DNA from: Oscillospiraceae bacterium
GTDB taxonomy: Bacteria > Bacillota > Clostridia > Oscillospirales > Oscillospiraceae
Assembly: GCA_015068495.1 (NCBI GenBank)
Contig: SVKL01000019.1
Span: 1 to 33,986, forward strand
Length of the DNA stretch: 33,986 bases
Reading direction: 5' to 3'
Part shown: positions 9,721 through 33,757 of the stretch, piece by piece
Numbering within the stretch: position 1 is the stretch's first letter
How the letters are laid out: each line of letters begins with the position of its first letter
Translations under genes and position numbers: made by a program
Notes under the pieces: model-generated
What the model was told of the DNA's origin: nothing
The model's database searches: none
What the model saw: only the letters and a program-made list of their open reading frames with translations

Positions 9721-9798
9721 ATTGACAATTGAAAATTGACAATGGACAATGAACACATCTTATAACGCAGACATAGCTGAATTGTCAATTGTCCATTA
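9721..9798. repeat. Heptamer-array element A (grpE-dnaK junction)
   Basis: The left arm 9721-9754 is built of 7-base units ATTGACA, ATTGAAA, ATTGACA, ATGGACA, ATGAACA and starts directly after the grpE TAA. The right arm 9780-9798 is the complement type (TTGTCAA, TTGTCCA). The 25-base centre has no strong hairpin. The arms can pair in RNA, placing a stem-loop between grpE and dnaK. Confidence 0.85.
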
Positions 9799-9834
9799 AA
9801 ATTATATATAATTTTCTATTAGGAGGATTTTATT

Positions 9835-11649
9835 ATGGGTAAGATTATCGGAATTGACTTAGGTACAACCAACTCTTGTGTTGCTGTTCTGGAAGGCGGC
9901 GAGGCAGTTGTCATCGCCAATGCCGAAGGCGGCAGAACCACCCCCTCTGTGGTGGCATTCTCTAAGACCGGCGAGCGTATGGTAGGTCAGGTGGCAAAGC
10001 GTCAGGCTGTTACCAATGCCGACCGCACCATCTCTTCCATCAAGCGCCATATGGGCGAGGACTACAAGGTAACCATCGACGGCAAGGGCTACACCCCGCA
10101 GGAAATTTCCGCAATGGTGCTGCAGAAGCTGAAGGCAGATGCAGAAAGCTACTTGGGACAGAGCGTTACCGAGGCAGTTATCACCGTTCCTGCATACTTC
10201 TCTGATGCCCAGCGTCAGGCTACCAAGGACGCAGGCAAAATTGCCGGCTTGGATGTGAAGCGTATCATCAACGAGCCCACCGCAGCTGCGCTGGCTTACG
10301 GCTTGGACAAGGACAGCGACCAGAAGATTATGGTCTATGACCTTGGCGGCGGTACCTTCGACGTTTCCATTTTGGAAATCGGCGACGGCATCGTGGAAGT
10401 GCTGGCTACCGCCGGCGACACCCGCTTGGGCGGCGACGACTTCGACGAGCGGATTATGGACTATTTGGTTACTGAATTCAAGAAGGCAGAGGGCATCGAC
10501 CTGAAAAATGACAAGGTTGCTATGCAGCGTCTCCGCGAGGCTGCCGAGAAGGCAAAGATTGAGCTTTCCGGTATGACCACCACTGCCATCAACCTGCCCT
10601 ATATCACCGCTGATGCTACCGGCCCGAAGCACTTGGATGTGACCTTGAGCCGCGCCAAGTTCGACGAAATGACCCGTGACTTGGTAGAGCGTACTCTGAA
10701 GCCTGTCCGTCAGGCTATGCAGGACGCAGGACTGAATGCTTCCGACCTGCACAAGGTGCTGCTGGTTGGCGGTTCTACCCGTATTCCTGCTGTGCAGGAG
10801 GCTGTTAAGAACCTCACCGGCAAGGAAGGCTTCAAGGGCATCAACCCCGACGAGTGTGTGGCGCTGGGCGCAGCCATTCAGGGCGGCGTGCTCACCGGCG
10901 ATGTGAAGGATGTGGTTCTGCTGGACGTAACACCCCTGTCTTTGGGTATTGAGACCATGGGCGGCGTGTTCACCAGACTGATCGACCGTAACACCACCAT
11001 TCCCGTGCGCAAGAGCCAGATTTTCTCCACCGCTGCTGACAATCAGCCTGCCGTGGATGTTCACGTGCTGCAGGGCGAGCGTGAAATGGCCGCTTACAAC
11101 AAGACCTTGGGCCGCTTTGAGCTCACCGGCATTGCTCCCGCACCCCGTGGCGTACCTCAGATTGAGGTTTCCTTCGACATCGATGCCAACGGTATCGTAA
11201 AGGTTTCCGCCAAGGACTTGGGCACCGGCAAGGAGCAGCAGATTTCCATCACTGCCTCCACCAACCTGAGCCAGGAGGACATCGACAAGGCTGTGAAGGA
11301 AGCTGAGCAGTTTGCCGCTGAGGATAAGGCAAAGAAGGAAGAGGTTGACACCCACAACAACGCCGAGCATCTGATTTATCAGACCGAGAAGACCTTGGGC
11401 GAGCTGGGCGATAAGGCTACTGAGGAAGAGAAGGCTGCGGTACAGGCTGCTATTGACAAGCTGAAGGAAGCCAACAAGGGCACAGACCTGCAGGCTATCA
11501 AGGATGCAATGGACGAAGCCCAGAAGGCTTTCTACCCCATCGCACAGAAGATGTATCAGAACGCCAACCCCGAGCAGGGCTGCGCCGGCGATTGCAATAC
11601 TTGCGGTGACGACGGCGTTGTAGACGCTGACTACACCACTGTAGACTAA
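9835..11649 (+). CDS. dnaK: Chaperone DnaK (Hsp70)
   Basis: An ATP-driven chaperone that works with DnaJ and GrpE. The 604 residues have the nucleotide-binding domain ([14 protein letters not shown] at the start, [15 protein letters not shown] and the [16 protein letters not shown] phosphate loop), the linker and start of the substrate domain ([19 protein letters not shown]), and a helical lid. The tail ends [10 protein letters not shown], a typical Firmicutes ending. Unusually, just before it is CAGDCNTCG: Cys-583, Cys-587 and Cys-590 in a C-x3-C-x2-C spacing. DnaK tails normally have no cysteines there. Ribosome site AGGAGGATTTTATT. Third gene of the hrcA operon. Confidence 0.99.
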
Positions 11650-11659
11650 AAACCAACCC

Positions 11660-11686
11660 AAAGGGGCGGGAAATCCGCCCCTTTTT
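11660..11686 (+). terminator. Intra-operon terminator or attenuator between dnaK and dnaJ
   Basis: AAAGGGGCGG (11660-11669), a 5-base loop and CCGCCCCTTTTT (11675-11686). It is strong enough to end a good share of transcripts after dnaK, which would lower dnaJ relative to dnaK. No separate dnaJ promoter is evident in the 23 bases that follow. Confidence 0.8.
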
Positions 11687-11709
11687 GGACGTATCAGAGG
11701 TGAAACTCT

Positions 11710-12855
11710 ATGGCAGAAGAAAAACGTGACTATTATGAGGTGCTGGGTGTTGATAAAAATGCCAGCGCCGAGGAAATAAAGAAAGCCTACCGCAAGAGCG
11801 CTATGAAATACCACCCCGACCGCAACCCCGGCAACAAGGAAGCCGAGGAGAAGTTCAAGGAGCTGGGTGAAGCGTACGAGGTATTGTCCGACCCGGAGAA
11901 GAAATCCCGTTATGACCAGTTTGGCTTTGCCGGTGTTGACCCCAGCTATGGTGGCGGCGCCGGTGGCTTCGGCGGCGGCTTCGGTGGCTTTGGCGGCTTC
12001 GATTTCGGCGACATTTTCGGTGACTTTTTTGGCGGCGGCGGCCGTCGGCAGAGCACCCAAAATGCACCCCGTCGGGGTGAAAATGTTGGCGCCCGGCTGG
12101 ATCTGACCTTTGAAGAGGCCGCATTCGGCGTAGAGAAAGAGGTTGGCGCCCAGCGAATTGAGAACTGCGCTGTGTGTAACGGGTCTGGCTCTGCTGACGG
12201 AAAGATTGAAACCTGCTCCCAGTGCCGCGGCACCGGTCAGGTATATACCGTGCGGAATATTATGGGTATGCAGATGCAGTCCCAAACCACCTGCCCCCAG
12301 TGCTCCGGCCGGGGTAAGATTATCAAAAACCCCTGCAACACCTGCCGCGGAAAGGGCAAGGTGCGCCGCACCCAAAAGGTGAAGGTGAAAGTGCCTGCCG
12401 GTGTGGATAACGGACAGACCGTCCGGATTCGGGGCGAGGGTAGCGTTGGCGCAAACGGCGGCCCCAACGGGGATTTGATGGTGGATATTTACATCAAACG
12501 TCATCCCATTTTTGAGCGTGACGGTATGAATGTGTACTGTGAGGTGCCCATTTCCTTTACCCAAGCGGCGCTGGGCGCAGAGATTGACGTGCCCACCTTG
12601 GACGGTAAGGTGAAATACGAAATTCCCGAAGGCACTCAAACCGGTAAGATGTTTACCATGCCCGATAAGGGTATCCCCGCAGTCAACAACCCCAGAATCC
12701 GGGGCGCCCATAAATTCACCGTGGTGGTGGAGACCCCCACCAAGCTCACCAAGGAGCAAAAGGAGCTGCTGCGGCAGCTGGATGAAACCTTGGATAAGAA
12801 ATCCAGCCCCAAGCGCAACAAGTTCTTCGATACCATTAAGGATTTTTTTGATTAA
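11710..12855 (+). CDS. dnaJ: Co-chaperone DnaJ (Hsp40, type I)
   Basis: DnaJ delivers substrates to DnaK and stimulates its ATPase. The 381-residue product is a complete type I protein: J domain 1-70 with the essential HPD (His-35, Pro-36, Asp-37), a Gly/Phe-rich linker (about 77-113), four CxxCxGxG zinc motifs ([32 protein letters not shown]), and the C-terminal peptide-binding domains. AGAGGTGAAACTCT precedes the ATG. Last gene of the hrcA operon. The next gene, trxA, has its own promoter and operator. Confidence 0.99.
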
Positions 12856-12864
12856 GCCGCAGAA

Positions 12865-12879
12865 TGTGATATTGTCACA
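12865..12879. promoter_or_regulatory. Crp/Fnr-type operator upstream of trxA
   Basis: TGTGATATTGTCACA is a 15-base imperfect palindrome (TGTGA-N5-TCACA). Its centre (12872) lies 28 bases upstream of the -10 at 12900, i.e. about -40 from the predicted start, the class II activator position for Crp/Fnr proteins. Nearly the same 15-mer occurs before trxB. Confidence 0.8.
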
Positions 12880-12899
12880 GTAAAAGGAAAAAAATATGG

Positions 12900-12905
12900 T
12901 ATACT
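12900..12905 (+). promoter_or_regulatory. -10 element of trxA (activator-dependent promoter)
   Basis: TATACT at 12900-12905. No recognisable TTGACA-like -35 is present at the right distance; the operator at 12865-12879 covers that region instead. Confidence 0.65.
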
Positions 12906-12944
12906 AAGGTTACAAAACAAAAACACCTTAAGGAGGAACACAGT

Positions 12945-13250
12945 ATGAACGTGCTGCATATTACCAAGGAAACTTTTGAAAACGAAGTATTAAAATCCGA
13001 CAAAACCGTGCTTTTGGACTTTTGGGCAAGCTGGTGCGGCCCCTGCCGTATGATTGCGCCATTTCTGGATGAAATTGCCCAAGAGCGTGAGGACATTAAG
13101 GTTTGCAAGGTTGACGTGGACGAAGAGCCGGAGCTGGCTGCCCGCTATCAGGTGGTGAGCATTCCCACATTGCTGGTGATTCAGGACGGAAAGATTGTAA
13201 ATCAGTCCATGGGCGCAAAACCCAAAGAGCAGATTTTGGCAATGCTGTAA
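12945..13250 (+). CDS. trxA: Thioredoxin
   Basis: A small disulfide reductase that passes electrons from thioredoxin reductase to protein substrates. The 101-residue product has the thioredoxin fold with the active site WASWCGPCRM (Cys-31/Cys-34) and the cis-proline segment SIPTLLVI. It lacks extra domains or a signal peptide and is cytosolic. AAGGAGGAACACAGT precedes the ATG. It is separated from the dnaJ stop by a promoter with a Crp-like operator, and lies next to the Crp/Fnr gene and trxB, which form its likely regulatory and reducing partners. Confidence 0.96.
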   Translation: MNVLHITKETFENEVLKSDKTVLLDFWASWCGPCRMIAPFLDEIAQEREDIKVCKVDVDEEPELAARYQVVSIPTLLVIQDGKIVNQSMGAKPKEQILAML

Positions 13251-13257
13251 TCAAAAA

Positions 13258-13280
13258 CCCCGCTTGCTGTGCAAGCGGGG
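13258..13280. terminator. Bidirectional terminator between trxA and the Crp/Fnr gene
   Basis: CCCCGCTTGC / GCAAGCGGGG is a perfect stem with a 3-base loop, flanked on the left by AAAAA (U-run on the minus strand). The right side is followed by TGCTTTCTT. It serves the two convergent genes. Confidence 0.85.
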
Positions 13281-13290
13281 TGCTTTCTTG

Positions 13291-13947
13291 TTATTCGGCC
13301 AAGTCTTCCAGCTTTTTCCGGTCAGTCAGCTCCACCGTGCCCCGGGTGAGCTGAACCATTCCCTCCTGCTGAAAGTATTTCAGCATACGGGTCACAACCT
13401 CCCGGGCTGTGCCCAAATGGTTGGCAATTTTCTCGTGGGTAAGCTTGAGAAGGTCAGTTTCCTCCAAACGGGCCTCCTCCACCAAAAAGGATGCCAGACG
13501 TCTGTCCATACTTTTCCACATAATCTGCTCCATCAGCCACATCACCTCGGAAAAGCGGGAGGCAAGCAATGCGTTTATGTAATTGGCAAGGACAGCCGAC
13601 GCTTCCACCAACCGCTTGTAGATATAGGGCGGAATGATGTAAGCCTCGGTATCCTTTTCTGCCTGAATCATCACCTCAAACTGGACGCTCTGCATCACGC
13701 AGGAGGCGGAAAACAGGCAGATGTCCCTGTCAAACAGCCGATAAAGGGTAATCTCTCTGCCCTCGTCAGACAGGCTGTACGCCCGCAGCTGACCGGACTT
13801 CACCAGCACCAAGCCAGCGCAGTCGGCAGAGCCGTTGTGGAGAATTTCATCCTTTGCAATTTTGCGGGCAACCACAGTCTCCCGCAGGGTTTGCTGCTGG
13901 GAGGGGGTGAGCTGGGAAAACATAGGCAGGTATTCTTCAAAATCCAT
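13291..13947 (-). CDS. Crp/Fnr family transcriptional regulator, likely thioredoxin-system regulator
   Basis: A 218-residue protein with an N-terminal cyclic-nucleotide-binding-like beta barrel (about 1-110), a dimerisation helix (115-145) and a C-terminal winged helix (148-218). The recognition helix reads TAREVVTRMLKYF; Arg-182, Glu-183 and Arg-187 fall exactly where E. coli CRP has Arg-180, Glu-181 and Arg-185, the residues that read TGTGA. The cAMP phosphate-binding signature is not evident. Cys-77 and Cys-83 (CLFSASC) lie in the sensor barrel, and Cys-43 is a third cysteine, so redox or metal sensing is possible. The gene lies between trxA and trxB with matching TGTGA-type operators before both. 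The family call is firm; target genes and signal are inferred. Confidence 0.92.
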   Translation of the reverse strand: MDFEEYLPMFSQLTPSQQQTLRETVVARKIAKDEILHNGSADCAGLVLVKSGQLRAYSLSDEGREITLYRLFDRDICLFSASCVMQSVQFEVMIQAEKDTEAYIIPPYIYKRLVEASAVLANYINALLASRFSEVMWLMEQIMWKSMDRRLASFLVEEARLEETDLLKLTHEKIANHLGTAREVVTRMLKYFQQEGMVQLTRGTVELTDRKKLEDLAE

Positions 13948-13969
13948 AGCGTGTCCTCCTGTTTTCTAT

Positions 13970-13998
13970 ATTATAAAGAAGAAAACGTAAGCTGTCAA
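13970..13998 (-). promoter_or_regulatory. Consensus sigma-A promoter of the Crp/Fnr gene
   Basis: On the minus strand TTGACA (13998-13993), a 17-base spacer and TATAAT (13975-13970): a perfect consensus. Its -35 lies one base from the operator at 14000-14014 that faces trxB, so the regulator may also control itself. Confidence 0.88.
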
Positions 13999-13999
13999 A

Positions 14000-14014
14000 T
14001 GTGATATTATCACG
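14000..14014. promoter_or_regulatory. Crp/Fnr-type operator between the regulator gene and trxB
   Basis: TGTGATATTATCACG (TGTGA-N5-TCACG) differs from the trxA operator in only two positions. Its centre at 14007 lies 29 bases before the trxB -10 (14036-14041), again about -41, and directly upstream of the -35 of the divergent regulator gene. Confidence 0.8.
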
Positions 14015-14035
14015 GAAGGAACAAAAAATACCGGG

Positions 14036-14041
14036 TATACT
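14036..14041 (+). promoter_or_regulatory. -10 element of trxB (activator-dependent promoter)
   Basis: TATACT at 14036-14041, with no -35 consensus. The operator occupies the upstream region as at trxA. Confidence 0.65.
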
Positions 14042-14069
14042 ATAGAAAAAAACGAGGGGAGTTGTTCCT

Positions 14070-14981
14070 ATGAAGAAGCAATATGATATGATTATCGTCG
14101 GCGGCGGACCCGGCGGTTATACCGCGGCGCTTTATGCAGCCCGGGCGGGGATGCAGGTGATTGTTTTGGAAAAGCTGGCAGCCGGCGGGCAGATGGTAGA
14201 AACCCCGAAGATTGATAATTACCCCGGCTTCACGGAAGGGGTGGACGGCTATACGCTGGGTCAGCAGATGCGGCAGGCTGCGGAAAAATACGGCGCGGAA
14301 ACCAAGTTTGCGCAGGTCACCAGGCTGGAATTAACCGGTGAAATCAAGGCTGTGGAAACTGCCGCAGGAACCTTTTACGGCAAAACCGTGGTGATTGCCA
14401 CCGGCGCAAGCCCCAAATACTTGGGCGTACCCGGTGAGCAGGAGCTCTACGGCAGAGGGGTGCACTATTGCGCTTCCTGCGACGGGGCATTTTACCGGGG
14501 GAAAACCGTGGTGGTGGTGGGTGGCGGCAACACCGCTGCGGCGGATGCGCTGCTGCTGTCCCGGGTGGCAAAAAAGGTGATACTGGTGCACCGGCGGGAT
14601 ACCTTGCGCGCCGCTCACGTGTACCATAAACCCCTTCGGGAGGCAGAAAATGTGGAATTCTTTTGGAATTCTCAGGTGCAGGAGATTCGCGCCGGAGAGA
14701 TTGTGCTGAAAAACACGATTACCGGTGAAATCAGCGTCTTGCCCTGCGACGGTGTGTTTGTGGGGATTGGCAGACAGCCGGCGTCCGGACTTGTAGAGGG
14801 TGTGTTGCATCTGGACAGCCAAAATTATATTGTGGCAGATGAGTCCACGGAAACCAATGTTGCAGGCGTGTTTGCTGTGGGAGATGTGCGTACCAAGGCG
14901 CTGCGGCAGATTGTCACCGCGGTGGCAGACGGCGCAACGGCAGTCCACCACGCCGAGGAATATCTGGCCAAATGCGGATAA
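14070..14981 (+). CDS. trxB: Thioredoxin reductase (FAD/NAD(P)H-dependent)
   Basis: This flavoenzyme reduces thioredoxin. The 303-residue product is typical of low-molecular-weight bacterial TrxB: FAD-binding GGGPGGYTAALYAARAG at 11-27, the redox pair CASC (Cys-134/Cys-137), an NADPH-domain GGGNTAAADALLL, HRRDTLRAAH (the HRRxxxRA pyridine-nucleotide motif, favouring NADPH), and a C-terminal GVFAVGDVR FAD motif. The nucleotide loop has GGGNTA where GGGDSA or GGGNSA is usual. AGGGGAGTTGTTCCT precedes the ATG. It forms a functional unit with trxA, 820 bases upstream, and shares an operator type with it. Confidence 0.96.
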   Translation: MKKQYDMIIVGGGPGGYTAALYAARAGMQVIVLEKLAAGGQMVETPKIDNYPGFTEGVDGYTLGQQMRQAAEKYGAETKFAQVTRLELTGEIKAVETAAGTFYGKTVVIATGASPKYLGVPGEQELYGRGVHYCASCDGAFYRGKTVVVVGGGNTAAADALLLSRVAKKVILVHRRDTLRAAHVYHKPLREAENVEFFWNSQVQEIRAGEIVLKNTITGEISVLPCDGVFVGIGRQPASGLVEGVLHLDSQNYIVADESTETNVAGVFAVGDVRTKALRQIVTAVADGATAVHHAEEYLAKCG

Positions 14982-14985
14982 TAAA

Positions 14986-15020
14986 AACAGCCGATTCTTA
15001 GAAAGAATCGGCTGTTTTTT
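14986..15020. terminator. Bidirectional terminator between trxB and the GH25 gene
   Basis: AACAGCCGATTCTT (14986-14999), a 3-base loop and AAGAATCGGCTGTT (15003-15016), followed by TTTT. The A-run on the other side serves the minus strand. The stop codon of the convergent GH25 gene (14998-15000) lies inside the hairpin. Confidence 0.9.
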
Positions 15021-16017
15021 CTTCCCAAGGGAAGTACAGATTGATGTCTACATTTCCGGCGATTCCCGGCACAGAGCCGGTCTCCGAATATTGCCACATA
15101 TCGATTTTGTAGGGATAGTCCAGCACCGTATCATACCGGGCCAGCCAGAAGGGATACTGGGTCAACTCCCGTATGTACACGTTTTCGTAGGAATGGTTGG
15201 TGTTGAAATAAACCATCGGCTGATAGCCGGCCTTGGCAACGGTGTCGCAGAAGGCTTTGGTGCAGTCGGTTAAGGTGCGGGCATCCACGCTTCCCGTGCG
15301 GGAGGTGTCGTCAATATACTCCCAGTCAAAGACCACGGGCATTTCCACGTTCCAGTCCTTGATAATGCTTAACAAGTAATTTGCCTCTTCGGTAGCTTCT
15401 TCCACGCTGATGGCTTGGGAGAAGAAGTAAGCGCCTACCTGAACGCCTGCAGCGGCAGCGCCGGAATAATTGATTTGGGCGTAGGTGTCCTCTGCCAAAA
15501 CCCCTTGCTCCGAGCCCCGCCAGCCTGCCCGAATCATAGCAAATTCCACGCCGGCGGCTTTCACCTGCTCCCAGTCAATATCCCCTTGCCATACAGACAC
15601 ATCGATGCCCAGCACAGAGGGGGTGGACAGGCAGGACAGGTAATCTCCGTCCATATAAAAATCTCCCAAACCGATGGGGTTTGCCTCCGGTGGCGGCAGG
15701 GTTTCCTCGGTGGTTTCCTGTGTGGTGGTTTGGGAGGTGGTGCTATTGGGGGAGGCAATGCTCCAACCGGGGTTGCGCAGGATAATCAAAAGCGCGCACA
15801 TAACGCACAAAAACACCAGCCCGCCAACGGTCAGCTCCCAGAAAAGCAGGGTCTTATAAAAAGGCTTCCGGGGCAGGGCAGGGGCCCCAGTTTCTTCTGC
15901 AGGGGCAACGTCAGCTTCTGTGGATGCCGCGTCGGTTTCTGCAATTTGGGTGGGAAGCGCTTCTGCTTCCTGTTCTTCAAGGGGTGAGTCTTGCAATTGT
16001 GTATTGTCTGTCTGCAT
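14998..16017 (-). CDS. Membrane-anchored GH25 (lysozyme/muramidase-like) protein
   Basis: A 339-residue type II membrane protein: an acidic, low-complexity cytoplasmic tail (1-50), one transmembrane segment (about 56-80, ending CVMCALLIIL), a Thr/Ser/Pro-rich linker (88-115) and a glycosyl hydrolase family 25 domain from about 136 to the end. Catalytic-type acidic residues are visible in GIDVSVWQGDIDWEQVK, GVEFAMIRAGWR and MPVVFDWEYIDD (the D-x-E motif). It should cut the glycan backbone of peptidoglycan at the outer face of the membrane, in remodelling or sporulation. The ATG at 16017 follows AAGGAGAACGCT; an upstream in-frame ATG at 16050 lies in the promoter region. Confidence 0.92.
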   Translation of the reverse strand: MQTDNTQLQDSPLEEQEAEALPTQIAETDAASTEADVAPAEETGAPALPRKPFYKTLLFWELTVGGLVFLCVMCALLIILRNPGWSIASPNSTTSQTTTQETTEETLPPPEANPIGLGDFYMDGDYLSCLSTPSVLGIDVSVWQGDIDWEQVKAAGVEFAMIRAGWRGSEQGVLAEDTYAQINYSGAAAAGVQVGAYFFSQAISVEEATEEANYLLSIIKDWNVEMPVVFDWEYIDDTSRTGSVDARTLTDCTKAFCDTVAKAGYQPMVYFNTNHSYENVYIRELTQYPFWLARYDTVLDYPYKIDMWQYSETGSVPGIAGNVDINLYFPWEEKTADSF

Positions 16018-16040
16018 AGCGTTCTCCTTGGTTTTTCTAT

Positions 16041-16069
16041 AGTATATCATAGCAAGCGCCCCTTGCCAA
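16041..16069 (-). promoter_or_regulatory. sigma-A promoter of the GH25 gene
   Basis: On the minus strand TTGGCA (16069-16064), 17 bases and TATACT (16046-16041), about 24 bases before the ATG at 16017. Confidence 0.8.
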
Positions 16070-16113
16070 GGCGGGATTTTGCGGTATATTTTTCCACCGG
16101 GTGGGTAAGCTAT

Positions 16114-16140
16114 AAAAAGGCTGTTGCCGAAGCAACAGCC
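16114..16140 (-). terminator. Terminator of the ACT-domain gene
   Basis: On the minus strand GGCTGTTGC-ttcg-GCAACAGCC is followed by TTTTTATA. The hairpin occupies 16119-16140 with the U-run encoded at 16114-16118. It lies just after the stop codon at 16148. Confidence 0.88.
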
Positions 16141-16147
16141 TTTGTAA

Positions 16148-16588: not shown

Positions 16589-16629
16589 AATGTCCTCCTA
16601 TATGGGACAGTTGTTCCGTCCCTGTGTAT

Positions 16630-16657
16630 ATTGTAGCACAAAAAAAGGAAAAAGCAA
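16630..16657 (-). promoter_or_regulatory. Probable promoter of the ACT-domain gene
   Basis: On the minus strand TTGCTT (16657-16652), 16 bases and TACAAT (16635-16630), about 40 bases upstream of the ATG at 16588. The leader contains a GGGAC/GTCCC inverted repeat. Confidence 0.6.
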
Positions 16658-21168: not shown

Positions 21169-21200
21169 ATTGACAATTGAAAATGGACAATTGACAATTT
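21169..21200. repeat. Heptamer-array element B (after the SPFH gene)
   Basis: ATTGACA, ATTGAAA, ATGGACA, ATTGACA units in 7-base register, beginning directly after the TAA at 21166-21168. This is a single-arm copy without the internal hairpins. Confidence 0.82.
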
Positions 21201-21232: not shown

Positions 21233-21436
21233 GTGGCTAAGAAAGAAAATCGCTTCATAAAGGTTTATTCCCAAGGCGGCGGCTTTACCGGACCCGGTTT
21301 CTATGTGCTTGTGGATAAACAGACCGGTGTAAACTATGTGTATGCCAGCGGCGGCTACGGCGGCGGCATTACACCGCTGCTGAATCGGGACGGCACTCCG
21401 GTGGTCACCCCTGTGCCGAATCAATACGAGGAATAA
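21233..21436 (+). CDS. Small conserved protein, DUF6440-type
   Basis: A 67-residue protein without a membrane segment. The sequence is a short basic start, the stretch FIKVYSQGGGFTGPGFYVLVDKQTGVNYVYA, a Gly-rich SGGYGGGITPLLNRDG and a short C-terminal tail. I associate this pattern with the DUF6440 family of unknown function; that is recall, not a search result. The start is GTG at 21233, with GAGG about 11 bases upstream. It follows the SPFH gene with a repeat element between. The TAA stop is again directly followed by TTGACA of a repeat element. Confidence 0.72.
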   Translation: MAKKENRFIKVYSQGGGFTGPGFYVLVDKQTGVNYVYASGGYGGGITPLLNRDGTPVVTPVPNQYEE

Positions 21437-21551
21437 TTGACACATACAATGTAGGGACCGGCCTCCCGGACGGTCCCTTTCTGACATCTCTCCCAATGGA
21501 CCGTCGAGGACGCCGGTCCCTACAAAATACGATGTATTTCATTTGTCAATT
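21435..21551. repeat. Composite palindromic element (heptamer ends around a TGTAGGG...CCCTACA palindrome)
   Basis: The outer inverted pair is AATTGACA (21435-21442, overlapping the TAA stop) and TGTCAATT (21544-21551). Inside is a perfect 13-bp inverted repeat TGTAGGGACCGGC (21450-21462) / GCCGGTCCCTACA (21512-21524), and inside that GACGGTCC (21469-21476) / GGACCGTC (21498-21505). It joins the two repeat families of this window in one copy. Confidence 0.85.
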
Positions 21552-25127: not shown

Positions 25128-25246
25128 GAATTGACAATTGAAAATGGACAATGGACAATTTAGGTGTCGGCAAAGCCGACTTATGAAAACAAATCGCGAA
25201 AAGCGATACCCACAATTGACAATTGTCAACTGTCAATTGTCAATTA
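25128..25246. repeat. Heptamer-array element C (hemZ-amidohydrolase junction), two arms and two hairpins
   Basis: The left arm 25128-25161 has ATTGACA/ATTGAAA/ATGGACA units. The hairpins are GTCGGC-aaa-GCCGAC (25166-25180) and ATCGC-gaaaa-GCGAT (25193-25207). The right arm 25212-25246 is of complementary type (TTGTCAA, CTGTCAA) and ends in the hemZ stop codon. It fills the entire gap between the two genes apart from the ribosome site. Confidence 0.88.
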
Positions 25247-26700: not shown

Positions 26701-26733
26701 ATTGTCAATTGTCCATTGTCAATTGTCAATTAT
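26701..26733. repeat. Heptamer-array element D (MBL-hemZ junction)
   Basis: A single arm of TTGTCAA/TTGTCCA units (on the minus strand TTGACAA, TGGACAA). On the minus strand it begins directly at the TAA of the metallo-beta-lactamase-fold gene (26730-26732). Confidence 0.82.
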
Positions 26734-27320: not shown

Positions 27321-27337
27321 AACGTGCTCCTTTCGGA

Positions 27338-27428
27338 GTGCAAAGTGTAAAGTGCAAAGTGCAAAGTGAAGGTGTCGCTCCGCGACAAAGAATAATTTTG
27401 CATTTTGCATTTTGAATTTTGCACTTTA
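27338..27428. repeat. Heptamer-array element E (dtd-MBL junction), TGCAAA variant
   Basis: The left arm 27338-27370 has GTGCAAA/GTGTAAA units. A hairpin GTCGC-tcc-GCGAC lies at 27374-27386. The right arm 27396-27428 has TTTTGCA/TTTTGAA units. It abuts the dtd stop (27429-27431) and reaches the ribosome site of the MBL gene. Confidence 0.87.
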
Positions 27429-27893
27429 TTATCTGCGGGGTGTGTCCATCAGCTGATCTGTGTCCAGAATCAGGGTCACAGGGCCGTCATTGACGGATTC
27501 CACTTTCATATCGGCGCCAAACTGACCGTGCTGGGGGGGATATCCCAACTCCTGGCAGATGGCAAGAAACTTTTCGTATAATTCGTTGCCCAGCTGGGGG
27601 TTTGCCGCGCCTACAAAGCTGGGCCTGCGACCCTTGCGGCAGTTGCCGTACAAGGTGAACTGGCTGACCACCAGCACCTCACCGCCCACGTCATCAAGGC
27701 CTAGGTTCATTTTGCCGTTTTCGTCCTCGAACACCCGCAAACCTAACGCTTTTTCTGCCAAATAGCGACATTCCTTCTCGGTGTCCTCCGGACCAACACC
27801 CAGCAGAATCAGAAAGCCCTGCCCGATTTTTCCGTATATTTTCCCGTCGATGGTCACCGACGCGGATTTCACTCTCGTTAATACTGCTCGCAT
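27429..27893 (-). CDS. dtd: D-aminoacyl-tRNA deacylase
   Basis: Dtd hydrolyses D-aminoacyl-tRNAs (and mischarged glycyl-tRNA) to keep D-residues out of translation. The 154 residues begin MRAVLTRVKSASV and carry the two signature loops: SQFTLYG (Ser/Gln/Thr of the active site) and the C-terminal cross-subunit GPVT motif in NDGPVTLILDTD. The length is standard. A GGAGGAGCGTT ribosome site precedes the ATG. It follows rel, as in Bacillus and many clostridia, with repeat element F between them. Confidence 0.97.
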   Translation of the reverse strand: MRAVLTRVKSASVTIDGKIYGKIGQGFLILLGVGPEDTEKECRYLAEKALGLRVFEDENGKMNLGLDDVGGEVLVVSQFTLYGNCRKGRRPSFVGAANPQLGNELYEKFLAICQELGYPPQHGQFGADMKVESVNDGPVTLILDTDQLMDTPRR

Positions 27894-27904
27894 AACGCTC
27901 CTCC

Positions 27905-27940
27905 TGAATTGTCAATTGTCCATTGTCAATTGACAATTAT
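27905..27940. repeat. Heptamer-array element F (rel-dtd junction)
   Basis: TTGTCAA, TTGTCCA, TTGTCAA units and a final inverted TTGACAA give a partly self-complementary single arm. It lies directly after the rel TAA (27941-27943 on the minus strand) and before the dtd ribosome site. Confidence 0.82.
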
Positions 27941-30127
27941 TTAGTTTTGTCCTCTTCTGGTGCCGGTGACGTCCCGGATGTTCAAAAGCTTGTTGCGGAT
28001 GGCATCCAGCTCAGCCACATTTTTTACCTCGAAGCGCACCGTAAACACACTTCTGCCGCCGGGCAAATCCTTGCCGTTGATTTCGTGCATACGGACACGG
28101 GCGGTGGTCATTGTGGTGACAATATCCAAAAGCAGACCGTCACGGGTAATGCAATCCAGCTCCAGCGTGGTATCAAAGGGCTGATCGTCTGCCTCTGCCC
28201 ACTGTACCCGCACCCACCGGGCTGCCTGATGGGGCTCATCCCGATTTTGGGCGTTGGGGCAGTCGATTCTGTGAACAGATACGCCGAAGCCCTTGGTGAT
28301 AAAGCCGATAATGCCGTCTCCGGGAACGGGGGTACAGCACTTGGCAAATTTAATCATACAGGAATCAATATCCTCTACAACGACGCCGTTGACGCCGTGG
28401 CGGTTGGACTTGGCGGCGGTGTCCGGCTTCACGGCTTGCAGAGCCGCCTGCTTTTCGCTGTTTTGCAGCTTCAGCGCCCGGTTGATGTCGTCACGGATTC
28501 TGCCCACGGCTTTCACTGCGGTAAGACCGCCGTAGCCGATGGCGGCGTACATATCATCCCAAGAGTCAAAGGCCAGCTTTTTCAGAAGCTGCGGGCCTAC
28601 CTCCGGGTCTACGGTAATGGCCAGCGGCAGACCCACCCGCTTCATTTCTCCTTCGAAGGAGGCTCTGCCGTGGGTGATGTTCTCCTCCCGCCGTTCCCGC
28701 TTAAACCATTGCTTGATTTTGGTTCGCGCCTGATTGGACTTGCAGATACCCAGCCAGTCCCGGCTGGGGCCCTTGGCGGCCTTGGAGGTGATGATTTCCA
28801 CAATGTCGCCGTTCTGCAAGGTGGCGTCGATATTGCAAATCCGTCCGTTGACCTTGGCGCCTACCAGCGAGTTACCCACGCCGGAGTGAATGGCATAGGC
28901 AAAGTCAATGGGGGTGGAGCCGGCAGGCAGCGGCACAATTTTACCCTTGGGGGTAAAGGTGAAGACCTCGTCATCGAACATATCGATCTTCATAGAATTG
29001 AGGTAGTCCTCAGCATCCGTATCCTGCTGGCTTTCCAAAAGCCGGCGAACCCATTCAAAGTCCTTTTCCTCTCCGTCGCCCATACCCTGCTTATACTTCC
29101 AGTGGGCAGCGATGCCGTACTCGGCGGTTTCGTGCATATCCCACGTGCGGATCTGCACCTCAAAGGGGATGCCCTGGGAGCCGATAACGGTGGTGTGCAG
29201 GCTTTGGTACATATTGGGCTTGGGGGTGGAGATGTAGTCCTTAAACCGCCCGGGCACCGGATTAAACAGGTCGTGGATGTGACCCAAAACGTTGTAGCAG
29301 TCGGGAATGGTGTCCACGATGACACGGAAGGCGTAAATGTCATACAGCTCATCCATGGTCTTTCCCTGAGCGTTCATCTTTCGGTAGATGGAGTACACGT
29401 GCTTAATCCGTCCGTAAGCGGTGTTTGCAATGCCCGTGGCAGTCAGCCGGTCGGAAATTTTGTCCTGAATGGTGCGCATAAAGGCCTCATCCTTTTCCTT
29501 GTGGGCAGACAGATAGGACGTAATATCCTGATAGCAGGTGGGGTCAAGATACCGCAGGGCGATATCCTCCAGCTCCCATTTCATCTTCTGCATACCAAGG
29601 CGGTGGGCCAAGGGAGCATAGATATCCATAGTTTCCCGGCACTTGAGAATCTGCTTTTCCGGCGTTTGGTACTGCATAGTACGCATATTGTGAAGCCGGT
29701 CGGCAATCTTAATCAGCACCACGCGGATGTCCTTGCTCATTGCCATAAACATCTTCCGGAGGTTTTCCATCTGCGCCTCTTCGGTGGAGGAGAAGTTGGC
29801 GCGGGTCAGCTTGGTGACGCCTTCCACCAGTTCGGCAACCGAGGGGCTGAACAGACGGGCAATTTCATCAAAGGATGCATCTGTGTCTTCAATGCAGTCG
29901 TGGAGCAGCGCGCCGAGAATGGCATCTATATCCAAGCCCATTTCTGCAACGATTTCTGCCACAGCCAAGGGGTGGATGATGTAGGGAGAGCCATCCTTCC
30001 GCTTTTGATCCTTATGTTTTTCCCGGGCGTATTCCACCGCCCGGTCAATGGTTGTTATATCCGCGCCGGGCAGGTGCTTGTTCACTGCCTGACACATAGA
30101 ACTGTAATGTTCAGAAAAAGATTCCAT
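27941..30127 (-). CDS. rel: Bifunctional (p)ppGpp synthetase/hydrolase Rel
   Basis: Rel makes and degrades the stringent-response alarmone. The 728-residue protein has all domains: a hydrolase HD domain with His-52, His-76/Asp-77 and Glu-80/Asp-81 (LLHDCIEDT), a synthetase domain (YDIYAFRVIVDT, then RFKDYISTPKPNMYQSLHTT), a TGS domain (VFTFTPKGKIVPLPAGSTPIDFAYAIH), a zinc-finger-like helical region (IKFAKCCTPVPGD) and a C-terminal ACT domain. The intact HD motif indicates a bifunctional enzyme. AAGGAG precedes the ATG. It is second in the recJ-rel-dtd operon; the apt gene often found between recJ and rel is missing. Confidence 0.97.
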   Translation of the reverse strand: MESFSEHYSSMCQAVNKHLPGADITTIDRAVEYAREKHKDQKRKDGSPYIIHPLAVAEIVAEMGLDIDAILGALLHDCIEDTDASFDEIARLFSPSVAELVEGVTKLTRANFSSTEEAQMENLRKMFMAMSKDIRVVLIKIADRLHNMRTMQYQTPEKQILKCRETMDIYAPLAHRLGMQKMKWELEDIALRYLDPTCYQDITSYLSAHKEKDEAFMRTIQDKISDRLTATGIANTAYGRIKHVYSIYRKMNAQGKTMDELYDIYAFRVIVDTIPDCYNVLGHIHDLFNPVPGRFKDYISTPKPNMYQSLHTTVIGSQGIPFEVQIRTWDMHETAEYGIAAHWKYKQGMGDGEEKDFEWVRRLLESQQDTDAEDYLNSMKIDMFDDEVFTFTPKGKIVPLPAGSTPIDFAYAIHSGVGNSLVGAKVNGRICNIDATLQNGDIVEIITSKAAKGPSRDWLGICKSNQARTKIKQWFKRERREENITHGRASFEGEMKRVGLPLAITVDPEVGPQLLKKLAFDSWDDMYAAIGYGGLTAVKAVGRIRDDINRALKLQNSEKQAALQAVKPDTAAKSNRHGVNGVVVEDIDSCMIKFAKCCTPVPGDGIIGFITKGFGVSVHRIDCPNAQNRDEPHQAARWVRVQWAEADDQPFDTTLELDCITRDGLLLDIVTTMTTARVRMHEINGKDLPGGRSVFTVRFEVKNVAELDAIRNKLLNIRDVTGTRRGQN

Positions 30128-30157
30128 ACTGAAAACTCCTTAGGGATTGGCAGGGAA

Positions 30158-30232
30158 TGTAGGGGCGACCATCGGTCGTCCGCAGAATGATTTGCTTGCA
30201 GGGGTAACGGACGAGCATTGCTCGCCCCTACA
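30158..30232. repeat. TGTAGGGGCGA...TCGCCCCTACA palindromic element (recJ-rel junction)
   Basis: An 11-bp perfect terminal inverted repeat (30158-30168 / 30222-30232). Inner palindromes are GACC-atc-GGTC and CGAGCATTGCTCG, and a CGTCCG/CGGACG pair lies between them. It lies 5 bases after the recJ stop codon and upstream of the rel ribosome site. No gene is inside. It resembles non-autonomous (MITE-like) elements. Confidence 0.82.
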
Positions 30233-30237
30233 AGCAC

Positions 30238-32295
30238 TTATTTATCCAATGCGGCAGTTAACTGCTGCATTGTACGGCTGGTGGTCAAATCCGCCTTGGT
30301 TTCCGACGGAAGCAGCCGGATCACAATGTTTTTGTGCAGCCGCTGAATCTCTAAAAGTCCTACGTCGGCAAAAATATCCAAGCAGGTGAGCAGCTGACCC
30401 AAGTGCAGGCAGCAGCCGGACCAACGGACAATTTTCCGGCACAGGCAAATGGGTGTTTCCTGTAAAGGGCTACTCTGGCAGGACAAATACCGCCAAACCA
30501 CACCCAAGGTCGCCCGGTCCGGCAGAAGTTTTTCTGCCGTCTGGGCATCCAGACAATCGCTCCGCAGGCGGAGATAGTCATCGATATCGCAGGAGACCTC
30601 CTGCCTGCAGGCAGGACGAATATCCTGCAGATGCAGCTGCACAGACCGTTCACCCCGGAATTCGTTGATTTGGGGAATAAATGCCACATCCACCAAATCT
30701 CCCTGATTGACAGAGGCGCTTTCGGCAGTGGTGGAGAAGAAAATGCCGTTGAAGCTGTGGTGCTGGCTTTGCAGCCGCAAACGCAGATGCCGTCCGGCGC
30801 CCACCTGATTCATCCGTTCCACCATCAGATTTTCCATTACCAAAACAGGCTTGGGACAGCCGTTGCCGCAGGGCTCAAGGGCATCTAAAGAGATTACGTT
30901 GGGCAGGGTCAGCAGCTCCGGAGAAATGCTGCAATCTGCCTCCAGCACAGTTTTCGGCCCGGATGCGCAATAAAAATCCTTAGCCAAACGGCAGATTTCC
31001 TGCCGGAATGCAGGAATTTGCTCCCGATGTATGGTAAAGCCTGCCGCCAATTCGTGACCGCCGTAGCTTTCCAAAAGGTGGGATAAGCTGGACAGCGAGG
31101 AGAACAGGTTGAAGCCGCCGAAGCTGCGGGAGCTGGCCTTGCCGTGGTCGCCGTCTAAGCAGATTAAAAAGGTGGGGCAGCAGTATTCCTCGGCGATTCT
31201 GCTGGCAACAATGCCCACAACCCCTTGGTGCCAGCTTTCGTCTGCCAGCACGATGGCTTCCGGGGTCTGACCCGGGGGGAGCATTTCCACAGCCTGCTGG
31301 TAGATTTCTTTTTCTACCGCCTGCCGCTCCTTGTTCAGCTCGCACAGAGCCCGCGCCAGTTCCTCACCCTTTTTCGGGTCGTCGGTTAAAAACAGCTCGA
31401 TTGCCAAATCAATCTGCCCCATACGCCCGGCGGCATTGATCCGGGGGCAGAGCATATAGCCCACCGAGGACGCAGTGATGGATTCCGGCTCGCAGCCGCA
31501 CTGGTGCATCAGCGCTGCAAGACCGGGACGGGTGGTTTGCCGGAGCATCGCAAGGCCCCGGGAGACAATGGTGCGGTTTTCACCCTGCAGGGGCATTACG
31601 TCCGCAACCGTGCCCAAGCAAACCATATCTGCGTAAAAGTCAAGAATGTCCTCTTGGCTTCCCGACAGGGCGGCTGCCAGCTTAAAGGCAACACCTACGC
31701 CGCTGAGGGCTTTGTGGGGATAGCCGCCGTCGGGGCGGTGGGGGTCTACCACTGCAATGGCCTCCGGCAGGGTGTCTTTACATTCGTGGTGGTCGGTAAT
31801 GACCAGATCAATGCCCAGCTGCCGGCAGAGCAGCGCCTCTTCCATAGCGGTGATGCCGCAGTCTACGGTGATAATCAGCTTGACACCCAGCCCGTGGAGA
31901 TATTCAATGGCAATGGGGTTGAGCCCATAGCCCTCCTCCAGACGGCCGGGGATGTAAGGCGTTACGTCGCAGCCGTGCTTGCGGAGAAAATCCGTCAGCA
32001 GGCACGTGGCGGTGATGCCGTCCACATCATAGTCGCCAAAGACGGCGATTTTTTCGCCCTGTTCCATAGCAACGGCCACCCGCCCTGCAGCCAAAGCCAT
32101 ATCCGTAAGCAGATAAGGGTCCGGCAGGGACGCGTGGCAATCTAAGTATCGGTCAGCAGATGCCTGATCCTCCAAGCCTCTGGAGGACAGCACCATTGCT
32201 GCCAGCGGTGCGTAGCCACCCCGGACCAACGCATTGACAGCGTCTACCCTCGGCGTAGCCGTTTTCCAAATTCCGTATTTCAAACCATAACACAT
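30238..32295 (-). CDS. recJ: Single-stranded-DNA-specific exonuclease RecJ
   Basis: A 5'-3' ssDNA exonuclease of the DHH family used in recombination and repair. The 685-residue product has the phosphoesterase motifs: GDYDVDG (Asp-88, Asp-90, Asp-92), VDCGIT (Asp-145), TDHHE (168-171), the Gly-rich SGVGVAFKL, and DHHA1-type elements later (SYGGHELAAGFTI), followed by an OB domain and a C-terminal extension. The start is uncertain: ATG at 32295 or TTG at 32283 (giving a family-like M-K-Y-G-I-W), neither with a Shine-Dalgarno. First gene of the recJ-rel-dtd-MBL-hemZ operon. Confidence 0.95.
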   Translation of the reverse strand: MCYGLKYGIWKTATPRVDAVNALVRGGYAPLAAMVLSSRGLEDQASADRYLDCHASLPDPYLLTDMALAAGRVAVAMEQGEKIAVFGDYDVDGITATCLLTDFLRKHGCDVTPYIPGRLEEGYGLNPIAIEYLHGLGVKLIITVDCGITAMEEALLCRQLGIDLVITDHHECKDTLPEAIAVVDPHRPDGGYPHKALSGVGVAFKLAAALSGSQEDILDFYADMVCLGTVADVMPLQGENRTIVSRGLAMLRQTTRPGLAALMHQCGCEPESITASSVGYMLCPRINAAGRMGQIDLAIELFLTDDPKKGEELARALCELNKERQAVEKEIYQQAVEMLPPGQTPEAIVLADESWHQGVVGIVASRIAEEYCCPTFLICLDGDHGKASSRSFGGFNLFSSLSSLSHLLESYGGHELAAGFTIHREQIPAFRQEICRLAKDFYCASGPKTVLEADCSISPELLTLPNVISLDALEPCGNGCPKPVLVMENLMVERMNQVGAGRHLRLRLQSQHHSFNGIFFSTTAESASVNQGDLVDVAFIPQINEFRGERSVQLHLQDIRPACRQEVSCDIDDYLRLRSDCLDAQTAEKLLPDRATLGVVWRYLSCQSSPLQETPICLCRKIVRWSGCCLHLGQLLTCLDIFADVGLLEIQRLHKNIVIRLLPSETKADLTTSRTMQQLTAALDK

Positions 32296-32297
32296 CC

Positions 32298-32345
32298 ATT
32301 ATATCATTTTCTTACCATTATATCAAAAAAACGTCCAATGCACAA
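32298..32345 (-). promoter_or_regulatory. Tandem sigma-A promoters of recJ with almost no leader
   Basis: On the minus strand there are two: TTGTGC (32345-32340)-17-TATAAT (32322-32317), and TTGATA (32326-32321)-17-TATAAT (32303-32298). The second would start transcription at about 32291, inside or just after the recJ ATG; the first would give a leader of about 15 bases. Confidence 0.65.
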
Positions 32346-32391
32346 TAGAAAAGTTCTAAATACCGGACAGGCGGCATAGATTTGAAGCAGA

Positions 32392-32507
32392 AATGCAAAA
32401 TGCAAAATGTAAAATGCAAAATGAATCTGTCGGCAAAGCCGACACATTAAAATATATCGCCTGCGGCGATACCTTCACTTTGCACTTTGCACTTTGCATT
32501 TTACACT
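32392..32507. repeat. Heptamer-array element G (recJ-carboxypeptidase divergent gap), TGCAAA variant
   Basis: The left arm 32392-32424 has ATGCAAA/ATGTAAA units. The hairpins are TGTCGGC-aaa-GCCGACA (32428-32444) and ATCGCC-tgc-GGCGAT (32456-32470). The right arm 32475-32507 has CTTTGCA/TTTTACA units. It lies between divergent genes, the only copy not placed after a stop codon. Confidence 0.88.
32480..32507 (+). promoter_or_regulatory. Possible promoter of the carboxypeptidase gene inside the repeat arm
   Basis: TTGCAC (32480-32485), 16 bases and TACACT (32502-32507), 19 bases before the ATG at 32526. Both boxes are made of heptamer-repeat units. No better promoter is visible in the gap. Confidence 0.4.
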
Positions 32508-32525
32508 CTAAAACAGGAGGTTTTT

Positions 32526-33662
32526 ATGAAAAGACTGTTTTGTTTACTTTGTGTGTTGCTGCTTTTGCCGGTGATTGCCGTGGGGGCGGTGGAAATGGAC
32601 ATTCCTGCCAAAAGCGCAGTGCTGATGGATGTGGCGACGGGGACGGTGCTCTATGAGCAGGATGCCCATACGCCGCTGGCGCCTGCCAGCGTCACCAAGG
32701 TGATGACAATGCTTTTGATTATGGAAGCGGTGGACGATGGACGCATCAAATGGGATGATACGGTCACCGCCTCCGAGGCGGCGGCGGCAAAAGGGGGCAG
32801 TCAGGTCTATTTGAAGGTGGGGGAGACGATGCCTGTTTCCGATATGGTCAAGGCAATTGCCGTGTCCTCCGCCAACGATTGCGCCTGCGCAATGGCTGAG
32901 CATCTTGCAGGCAGTGAATCGGCGTTTGTGGACCTGATGAACAGCCGCGCCAAGGAGCTGGGGATGCAGGACACCCATTTTGTGAATTGTACGGGGCTGG
33001 ACGACAGCGAGGAGGCAAAAAATCACAAAACCTCCGCCTACGATATTGCCCTGATGTCCCGGCAGCTGCTGAAAAACCATCCGGACATTAAAAAGTTCAC
33101 CACCATTTGGATGGACACGGTGCGCAATGGGGAATTTGGCCTGTCCAACACCAATAAGCTGGTGCGGTTTTACCAAGGGGCAACCGGGCTGAAGACCGGC
33201 TTTACCTCTCAGGCAGGCTACTGCCTTTCCGCCTCGGCGGCCCGGGAGGATATGGAGCTGGTGGCAGTGGTGATGGGTAGCGAGAGCTCCAAGGAACGGT
33301 TTGCCGCCTGCAAATCTATGCTGGATTACGGCTTTGCTTCGTATGCCTTGATTACACCGGCCACAGAAAAGGCGCAAATCCCTGTGAAATTGGGAACTGC
33401 GGATGTTGCTACAGCCGTTCCTGCGGGTGAGGACGCGGTGCTGATAGAAAAGGCGCAGAAGAATCAGGTGACCCAGCAGGTGGTTTTGGAGGAGCAAGTG
33501 GATGCGCCTGTGAGCAAGGGGCAGCGGCTGGGTACATTATATATTAAGGCAGGGGAGCAAGTGCTGAAGGAAATCCCTATGGTAGCAGAGCAGCCGGTAG
33601 AAAAGCTCACCTTTTGGCAGATGCTCGGCAGACTTTTCCGGAAGCTGGTTATGGCGGATTAA
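32526..33662 (+). CDS. D-alanyl-D-alanine carboxypeptidase (DacF/PBP5-type)
   Basis: A low-molecular-weight penicillin-binding protein that removes the terminal D-Ala of peptidoglycan stems. The 378-residue precursor has a signal peptide (about 1-21). The serine-acyltransferase triad is complete: SVTK (Ser-55, Lys-58), SAN (115-117) and KTG (223-225). A C-terminal PBP5_C-like beta domain (about 275-360) is followed by an amphipathic, hydrophobic tail (FWQMLGRLFRKLV) that likely anchors it to the membrane. ATG 32526 follows ACAGGAGGTTTTT. DacF-type enzymes act in vegetative wall or spore cortex trimming; which applies here cannot be said. Confidence 0.95.
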   Translation: MKRLFCLLCVLLLLPVIAVGAVEMDIPAKSAVLMDVATGTVLYEQDAHTPLAPASVTKVMTMLLIMEAVDDGRIKWDDTVTASEAAAAKGGSQVYLKVGETMPVSDMVKAIAVSSANDCACAMAEHLAGSESAFVDLMNSRAKELGMQDTHFVNCTGLDDSEEAKNHKTSAYDIALMSRQLLKNHPDIKKFTTIWMDTVRNGEFGLSNTNKLVRFYQGATGLKTGFTSQAGYCLSASAAREDMELVAVVMGSESSKERFAACKSMLDYGFASYALITPATEKAQIPVKLGTADVATAVPAGEDAVLIEKAQKNQVTQQVVLEEQVDAPVSKGQRLGTLYIKAGEQVLKEIPMVAEQPVEKLTFWQMLGRLFRKLVMAD

Positions 33663-33663
33663 T

Positions 33664-33757
33664 AATTGACAATGGACAATGGTCAATGGACAATTAAGGG
33701 GTCGGCGATGCCGACGAATAAAATAATTGTCAACTGTCAATTGTCAATTGTCCATTC
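33664..33757. repeat. Heptamer-array element H (after the carboxypeptidase gene)
   Basis: The left arm 33664-33696 (ATTGACA, ATGGACA, ATGGTCA, ATGGACA) begins just after the TAA at 33660-33662. A hairpin GTCGGC-gat-GCCGAC lies at 33701-33715. The right arm 33725-33757 has TTGTCAA, CTGTCAA, TTGTCAA, TTGTCCA. It lies between convergent genes. Confidence 0.88.

Follow-up and report, generated by a model that had tools for sequence, protein, structure and literature searches.

The closest described systems to the element studied here are the REPINs and BIMEs, which, in the displayed text of their sources (PMC3116915, PMC2817692), are pairs of inverted hairpins with a short conserved foot that are extragenic, disperse as a unit and can be built of unlike halves. 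The same features are found in a hairpin element present in a 33,986-nt stretch of DNA (contig SVKL01000019.1 of assembly GCA_015068495.1, from an Oscillospiraceae bacterium; hereafter the window), which is the entire contig C12 of the host metagenome-assembled genome (MAG) G000 of 1.77 Mb. In this element two inverted hairpin repeats likewise disperse as a unit, but the foot is GGT and not GTAG, arms of 7-nt units (heptamers) lie outside the hairpins, and no RAYT correlates with it. For repetitive extragenic palindromes (REPs), the displayed text of PMC3733652 describes GTAG and CGTC types as short palindromes, often dimers, some of which are embedded in longer palindromes; GTAG REPs often provide stop codons, and CGTC REPs have no known transposase. 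That text describes no heptamer arms for these REPs, and our element lacks the GTAG tag; on the other strand many of its hairpins read ATCCGTCGGC, which may correspond to the CGTC tag, although GTC is paired there and the tag of CGTC REPs is unpaired.

Heptamers themselves have been reported elsewhere, here again as far as the displayed text of each source goes. The GGGAATC/GGGGAYT repeats of Xanthomonas and Nostoc (PMC4692102) are intergenic, lie near or overlap coding-strand stop codons and occur as inverted pairs in Xanthomonas, but they are G-rich and treated as simple repeats, with no fixed arm length or coupled hairpins described. The TAACTGA repeats of Beggiatoaceae, Cyanobacteria and Bacteroidetes (PMC4679880) are direct heptamer repeats in the spacers of several phyla, but they sit mostly just 5' of start codons, number two to six or up to 43 units, and have no hairpin pair described. 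The parS site of pSM19035 (PMC9499535) consists of contiguous 7-bp sites, direct or inverted, at least four giving full activity, but it is a plasmid centromere of WATCACW units, also with no hairpin pair described. No description of fixed heptamer arms around hairpins was found in the literature, judged by titles and displayed text and mostly outside subscription papers. Since the tests for a GTAG REP failed twice (tag and cognate RAYT), we file the element as a variant among the REP-type miniature elements; it behaves like a REPIN or BIME, and the heptamer arm is its new part.

We propose that the copies in the window, except copy C (Table 1), are probably complete, deleted or single-arm versions of the same non-autonomous mobile element, which spreads in a REPIN-like manner with a preference for gene 3' ends. 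All nine stretches listed in the original prediction were confirmed at their positions by direct reading of the sequence, and Tandem Repeats Finder reported period 7 in 12 rows spanning eight of them (all except C), with one additional row of period 21 over copy D. The two-arm inverted layout that had been ascribed to the copies holds for the stretches at 9721, 25128, 27338, 32392 and 33664; those at 21169, 26701 and 27905 are single arms and that at 21435 is a different repeat. The internal hairpins had also been stated too broadly, as there are two in the copies at 25128 and 32392 (D and H, which are complete: arm, hairpin, AT-rich spacer, hairpin, inverted arm), one in those at 27338 and 33664, and none in that at 9721. 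Rfam gave no match above the gathering score in the window.

Arm length and architecture are fixed. The median distance from arm start to GGT is 34 nt (36 of 125 arms have exactly this value; 10th and 90th percentiles 27 and 41), and a half therefore consists of a 34-nt arm (four heptamers and six bases), GGT and a hairpin, and two facing halves form an element of 114-118 bp. As in a miniature inverted-repeat transposable element (MITE), the termini are thus inverted arms of fixed length, complete copies measuring 114-116 bp. The phase is locked as well: relative to GGT it is identical in 116 of 125 distinct arms, with seven phases possible, and in every one of the 15 exact halves of G000 the last ARTK is separated from GGT by two bases; the seven other gaps tested gave no exact half, nor did period 6 or 8. 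At their foot the phased halves carry GGT and not GTAG; as GGT was itself used to seek the halves, other feet could be missed. In the fetched DNA a period-7 arm occupies the 40 nt before the hairpin for 128 of 277 GGT-hairpins (stem of at least 5) and for 23 of 747 hairpins without GGT (stem of at least 6); the same GGT flanks scored at period 5 gave 3, and at periods 6, 8 and 9 none. Since the fetched loci were mostly picked by core or heptamer, the fairer figure comes from G000 under a single stem rule, where arms accompany 12 of 23 GGT-hairpins versus 8 of 308 other hairpins (p 4e-11).

The heptamers had been divided into two variants sharing no sequence. Once phased to the hairpin, AATTGAC/AATGGAC and AATGCAA/AGTGCAA both fit the skeleton ARTKNAN, and the idea of two unrelated heptamers was rejected. 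Position 1 is A in 94%, position 2 A or G in 96%, position 3 T in 79%, position 4 G or T in 92% and position 6 A in 85%, positions 5 and 7 being free; the phase was selected on positions 1-3, which favours these percentages. When 196 arms were fitted at their best phase and strand, 149 scored 5/5 (rounded), 44 scored 4 and 3 scored 3. The skeleton is not universal, GATATAA of genome G203 fitting it poorly.

The hairpin covaries. Second hairpins were compared in elements picked by their first hairpin, with an A[CT]ACC-like foot as the anchor, which placed 24 of 29 elements (18 distinct); the five omitted mostly look broken there by eye. Pairing was found in 91.9% of cells versus 70.7% in shuffled sets, double changes in 22 cells versus 7.5, and the covariation score was 0.556 versus 0.231. 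Kinship alone can beat shuffles without any structure; controls in which the partner was slid by 1-3 columns retain relatedness, and there pairing fell to 28-55%.

The letters of the heptamer are specific to lineages. Two units of the same arm agree at position 5 in 80%, units from different arms of one genome in 45% and units from different genomes in 32%; the corresponding values for position 7 are 63%, 43% and 29%. The arms of one element share 5-mers at 0.38 versus 0.17 across genomes (32 two-arm elements; permutation p 2e-4). The commonest units are AGTGAAG and AGTGAAT, and those beside the shared core in the fetched copies include ATTGACA, AATTGAA, RTGCAAA, RTGAATA, ATGCTAA, ACTGAAA and ATTGATA, among others. 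In G375 the two arms belong to different classes in all six listed elements (sharing 0 in five and 0.11 in one). The element thus offers a natural case of a repeated motif that changes its letters across whole arms. As a side observation, the elements at L311 184 and 1404 agree in the left arm and first hairpin and disagree in the right arm and second hairpin, as though they had traded halves.

The element is dispersed well beyond the window. A strict core pattern (GGTGTCGN{5,7}CGACTTAT) matched 1 of 300 family genomes, G000 alone, and is too strict to be useful; a looser core (GGTGTCG...CGACnnAT) matched 38 of 136 genus genomes, its reversed control also matching many, mostly singly. Allowing up to one mismatch, the half pattern ARTKNANARTKNANARTKNANARTKNNGGTRT matched 15 of 110 family genomes, with 110 matches versus 7 for the reversed pattern (in 6 genomes), and occurs 12-21 times each in G000, G001, G107, G066 and G006, which represent four genera. 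With two mismatches it was found in 50 of 398 phylum genomes and its reverse in 34, mostly once; a clear excess of forward over reversed matches is seen in G000 (26:2), G066 (32:0), G472 (36:3), G732 (11:0) and G523 (7:0). Three fetched stretches of G066, which belongs to another genus, have the same arm and GGT hairpin. In two stretches from G472 the phase is kept with GGGAT and no clear hairpin, one stretch from G523 has no clear hairpin, and the matches listed for G732 mostly lack GGT. Among the matches listed for named genomes, arms with the core occur in Clostridia, several being, by their titles, Oscillospiraceae MAGs from ruminant guts, and one Alistipes contig has period-7 units on the right side only.

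Copies are gained or lost at single sites. A comparison of 15 kb of the window against 61 genus genomes, one of them G000 itself, was followed by the retrieval of 20 stretches from relatives; 7 of the 20 contained arrays above threshold, many built of other heptamers (AATTGAA, AATTGAG, AATGCAT, GATATAA or GGAATTA). The comparison of orthologous junctions suggested with the original prediction gave a mixed picture: several arrays share window junctions, such as the AATTGAA-type arrays at the copy H junction in G188, G207 and G396, and the corresponding junctions are empty in many other relatives. At the site of copy B, G188 and G198 read TAATG. The close relatives G207 and G396 differ reciprocally at two sites. 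An insert of about 116 bp in G396 (L248 3980-4095) is missing in G207, where the aligned segments overlap by 10 bases in an A-tract, and one of about 108 bp in G207 (C13:140143-140250) is missing in G396; by eye, the former sits at the A-tract of an intrinsic terminator and the latter directly after a terminator T-tract. No target-site duplication was clear by eye at these two empty/filled pairs or at three copies on the phage contig L408.

Phage contigs carry near-identical copies, which together with the reciprocal insertions bears out the earlier suggestion of a MITE-like mobile element. An exact half is contained in 58 viral stretches. Contig L417 has five 116-bp elements with 96-100% identity and flanks of 60-80%, L408 has three copies with 91-96% identity and L440 two with 85%, flanks on both being 50-60% identical, about the level measured for unrelated flanks. 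Since the L417 copies share flanks, the copied unit there may be larger; these longer flanks look like one more hairpin pair on the outside. On contigs L417, L408, L395, L440 and L438 as many as 13 exact halves in 10 kb are interspersed with structural genes, and PHROGs assigned eight of ten proteins from four such contigs to portal, terminase, head protease or major head or tail, with none assigned for the other two. Such copies among structural genes suggest that phages may help the element to spread and that phage transcripts may be affected.

The element is enriched after stop codons. A codon-based gene caller placed 24 of the 36 elements of G000 (5 overlapping a called gene and 7 at contig edges) and 72 of 104 at other loci of the genus (3 overlapping a gene and 29 at an edge). 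Between tandem genes, 11 of 21 elements in G000 and 16 of 49 at the other loci lie at most 6 nt from the stop, where a uniform null expects 4.1 (p 4.5e-5) and 4.0 (0 of 200,000 simulations), respectively, and a null that spares 18 bp before the next start for the ribosome-binding site (RBS) expects 8.1 (p 0.027) and 7.3 (p 4.5e-5); not all elements in these statistics are independent. The anchoring at stop codons originally put forward is thus a genome-wide preference and not a rule. In the window itself eight of the nine copies do start 0-3 bases after, or overlap, a TAA, the exception being the 32392 copy between divergent genes. TAA is the stop codon at 28 of 33 stop-adjacent junctions versus 68.6% of 1,959 called genes (p 0.03). 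The preference for positions directly 3' of stop codons holds against the uniform null and, in G000, more weakly against the RBS-sparing one. Single arms overall are 20 sense and 17 antisense (p 0.74). The orientation follows transcription for 14 of the 15 arms beside a stop and for 6 of the 22 others (p 1.2e-4); some of these others are the right arms of elements in which the left arm did not reach the threshold. Of 128 elements, 14 adjoin a terminator-like hairpin, versus 228 of 6,000 intergenic points (p 4e-4), two of the 14 being the element's own hairpin, and terminators are a second, weaker site.

How such an element might move can be sketched from its structure. Spread would be REPIN-like, with an enzyme supplied in trans acting on the paired GGT-hairpins, and since no clear duplication was seen a hairpin or single-stranded intermediate is probable. 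The heptamer arm may offer evenly spaced binding positions to an oligomeric partner, the specificity of which would drift from lineage to lineage, and gene 3' ends would accumulate the element through both insertion preference and tolerance. A bolder version, which we put forward tentatively, is that Bacillota and their phages have a mobile system not yet described. Its non-autonomous elements would end in lattices of some five heptads that an oligomeric protein reads; heptad positions 5 and 7 would act as a lineage address changing arm-wide, and the elements would move to gene 3' ends without duplicating the target.

The long RNA stem-loops that had been predicted are supported in part by computed folding. 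Compared with shuffles, copies D, H, F and I fold strongly (z -7.6, -7.9, -4.8 and -4.4), copy A weakly (z -1.7), and the single arm B has z -3.6. This raises the alternative that the copies are RNA elements kept by the host, namely 3'-untranslated or intercistronic structures that shield the mRNA upstream of them or undergo RNase III cleavage, with selection keeping them at stops. The strong folding of two-arm copies, the covariation of hairpin 2, a stop adjacency that exceeds the spacing null and the phage contig L438, in which three single halves lie in the sense orientation among head genes, are all consistent with it. We nevertheless consider it unlikely, as many orthologous junctions are empty in relatives, the closely related G207 and G396 disagree at two sites, and there are copies between divergent genes and lone arms without a partner. 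If the copies are instead a mobile element, those that are transcribed would form long hairpins that may alter local mRNA stability as a side effect and not as the reason for their existence.

Several results weigh against a mobile element of this kind. Two of five covariation measures of hairpin 2 did not exceed the shuffles (double-change pairs 4 versus 3.5, further pair types 9 versus 8.9). The arms of one element share no more with each other (0.38) than with other arms of the same genome (0.36; within-genome permutation p 0.68, 23 elements); element-level co-evolution of arms was therefore rejected, and since the two values are so close the heptamer is better seen as a property of the genome's population of halves. 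Stop adjacency is partly forced by short spacers, and switches of heptamer class at the same site can reflect recurrent insertion instead of turnover in place. Furthermore, no mobilising enzyme was found. The 13 genes scanned between facing arms included no transposase (11 had Pfam domains of housekeeping type or of unknown function and two had no match); these are ordinary host genes, and an autonomous element between the arms was rejected. No autonomous partner with the same ends was found within about 2.4 Mb of fetched DNA. Lastly, Y1 transposase genes do not track copy number, being present in 11 of 16 genomes with at least two cores versus 65 of 120 others (p 0.30; MAGs are incomplete).

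The last point bears on whether the GGT-hairpins are true REPs, moved as RAYT-mobilised REPINs by an IS200/IS605-like Y1 transposase. Two inverted hairpins with a short conserved foot, heterodimers and the lack of a clear target-site duplication all fit, and Y1 genes occur in 76 of 136 genus genomes, but the GTAG tag is absent and the core-bearing genomes G398, G375, G367, G396 and G207, with 15, 8, 6, 6 and 3 cores, have no Y1 match in their incomplete MAGs (three with an explicit count of zero, G396 and G398 by their absence from the 76). RAYT mobilisation was thus rejected as uncorrelated, and we regard this origin as rather improbable. The two Y1/RAYT-like genes of G000 (C9:33955-34197 and C14:64105-64479) hold GTAGGG-type hairpin repeats inside their coding sequence instead. 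Near-perfect short matches to the surroundings of the C9 Y1 gene recur on many contigs of G203, G198 and G367.

It is quite improbable, in our judgement, that the arms are centromere-like or operator-like heptad arrays bound by a ribbon-helix-helix protein in the manner of pSM19035 parS. The unit length and contiguity agree with what the displayed text of PMC9499535 reports for parS (at least four units for full activity), and the reverse complement of its heptad, WGTGATW, resembles AGTGAAG and AGTGAAT, a likeness in letters that would be a lead only. The coupled hairpin has no counterpart in parS as described there, and placement at gene ends differs. Omega_Repress gave 0 matches in 136 genus genomes, a weak test since no control genome matched either. 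Polymerase slippage, as proposed for the heptanucleotide repeats of other bacteria, is very improbable: the arms are indeed tandem 7-base units, an earlier survey (as cited in the displayed text of PMC4679880) found heptanucleotides to be the commonest class of long repeat in most genomes, and some long arrays exist (e.g. G375, L244 541-680), but unit number does not appear freely variable, arm length and phase being mostly fixed, the unit in G107 appears by eye to depend on its place within the arm, and whole units including hairpins get copied.

Heptamer repeats have so far been reported phylum by phylum with slippage as the proposed cause, whereas here, in four or more genera of a single family, they form the arms of a mobile element with a set length, phase and hairpin. 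This offers an alternative to slippage for other bacterial heptamer arrays, and the degenerate half pattern is a probe for testing it. In the host genome, our own segment finder returned 47 period-7 arrays, versus 0, 0, 6, 2, 13, 1, 2, 16, 1 and 10 at periods 4, 5, 6, 8, 9, 10, 11, 12, 13 and 15 and 33 at period 14, a multiple of 7; the scan was near-complete, with 22,223 of 1,774,978 bases missing or masked, and shuffled sequence from a part of G000 gave zero arrays at periods 5-11. Array density is uneven, the window having 12 arrays (35 per 100 kb) and most long contigs 0-2 per 100 kb. A chimeric bin may be the source of this unevenness. Since contig composition is continuous and G188 is the best relative match for both C12 and C9, we neither claim nor dismiss a mixed bin. 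The array-rich contigs C12, C15, C16, C21, C25 and C39 are short and of higher GC than most array-poor long contigs, and several contigs terminate near an array.

Table 1. Heptamer-arm copies and their parts in the window
Feature	Position	Strand	Description
Copy A	9721..9798	+	Left arm 9721-9755, AT-rich middle 9756-9779 without hairpin, short right arm 9780-9798
Copy B	21169..21200	+	Single arm, sense to transcription, immediately 3' of the SPFH/Band_7 gene stop
Copy C	21435..21551	.	Different inverted repeat of GTAGGGACCGG type, flanked by remnant AATTGACA/TGTCAATT ends
Copy D	25129..25246	-	Full element; right end at the stop of a minus-strand radical-SAM gene (earlier named hemZ)
Copy D left arm	25129..25162	+	34 nt, (ARTKNAN)x4 + 6; exact half-pattern match 25136-25167
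Copy D GGT + hairpin 1	25163..25180	+	GTCGGC-AAA-GCCGAC
Copy D hairpin 2 + ACC	25193..25210	+	ATCGC...GCGAT
Copy D right arm	25211..25246	-	
Copy E	26701..26733	-	Single arm, sense to a minus-strand metallo-beta-lactamase-fold gene, at that gene's stop
Copy F	27338..27428	-	Arms 27338-27370 and 27395-27428, RTGCAAA class; GGT + hairpin 27371-27386
Copy G	27905..27940	-	Single arm, sense to and 3' of the minus-strand rel (RelA/SpoT) gene
Copy H	32392..32507	.	Full element, RTGCAAA class, between divergent recJ-like and carboxypeptidase genes
Copy H hairpin 1	32429-32443		
Copy H hairpin 2 + ACC	32456-32473		
Copy H right arm	32474-32507		
Copy I	33664..33757	+	Left arm 33664-33697, hairpin 33701-33715, right arm 33726-33757

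The gene names given earlier for the flanking genes agree with Pfam except for hemZ, for which Pfam supports Radical_SAM only. Copy A lies immediately 3' of the grpE stop TAA, copy F lies 3' of the dtd (Tyr_Deacylase) stop with an exact half at 27344-27375, and copy I lies 3' of a D-Ala-D-Ala carboxypeptidase stop. Copy C overlaps the DUF6440 stop, adjoins a terminator-like hairpin and holds no true heptamer array; inverted repeats of the GTAGGGACCGG/GTAGGGGCGG kind are nested in, or replace, heptamer elements at the same junctions, both at this place in the window and in relatives. Elsewhere, two species (L210 and L213) have an element in the interval from tRNA-Arg to tRNA-His, and in G000 (C39:60-250) one stands just before tRNA-His; in G190 the order of its two hairpins is swapped. 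Among the matches listed, Caulobacter and others have the hairpin with no heptamers beside it. In those of the loci L262-L341 that lack arms, it reads GGTGTCGGC...GCCGACGGAT with GAGAA or GGGAA before it and GAGGG after it, and this armless form is frequent in Caulobacterales and present in Clostridia and Bifidobacterium.

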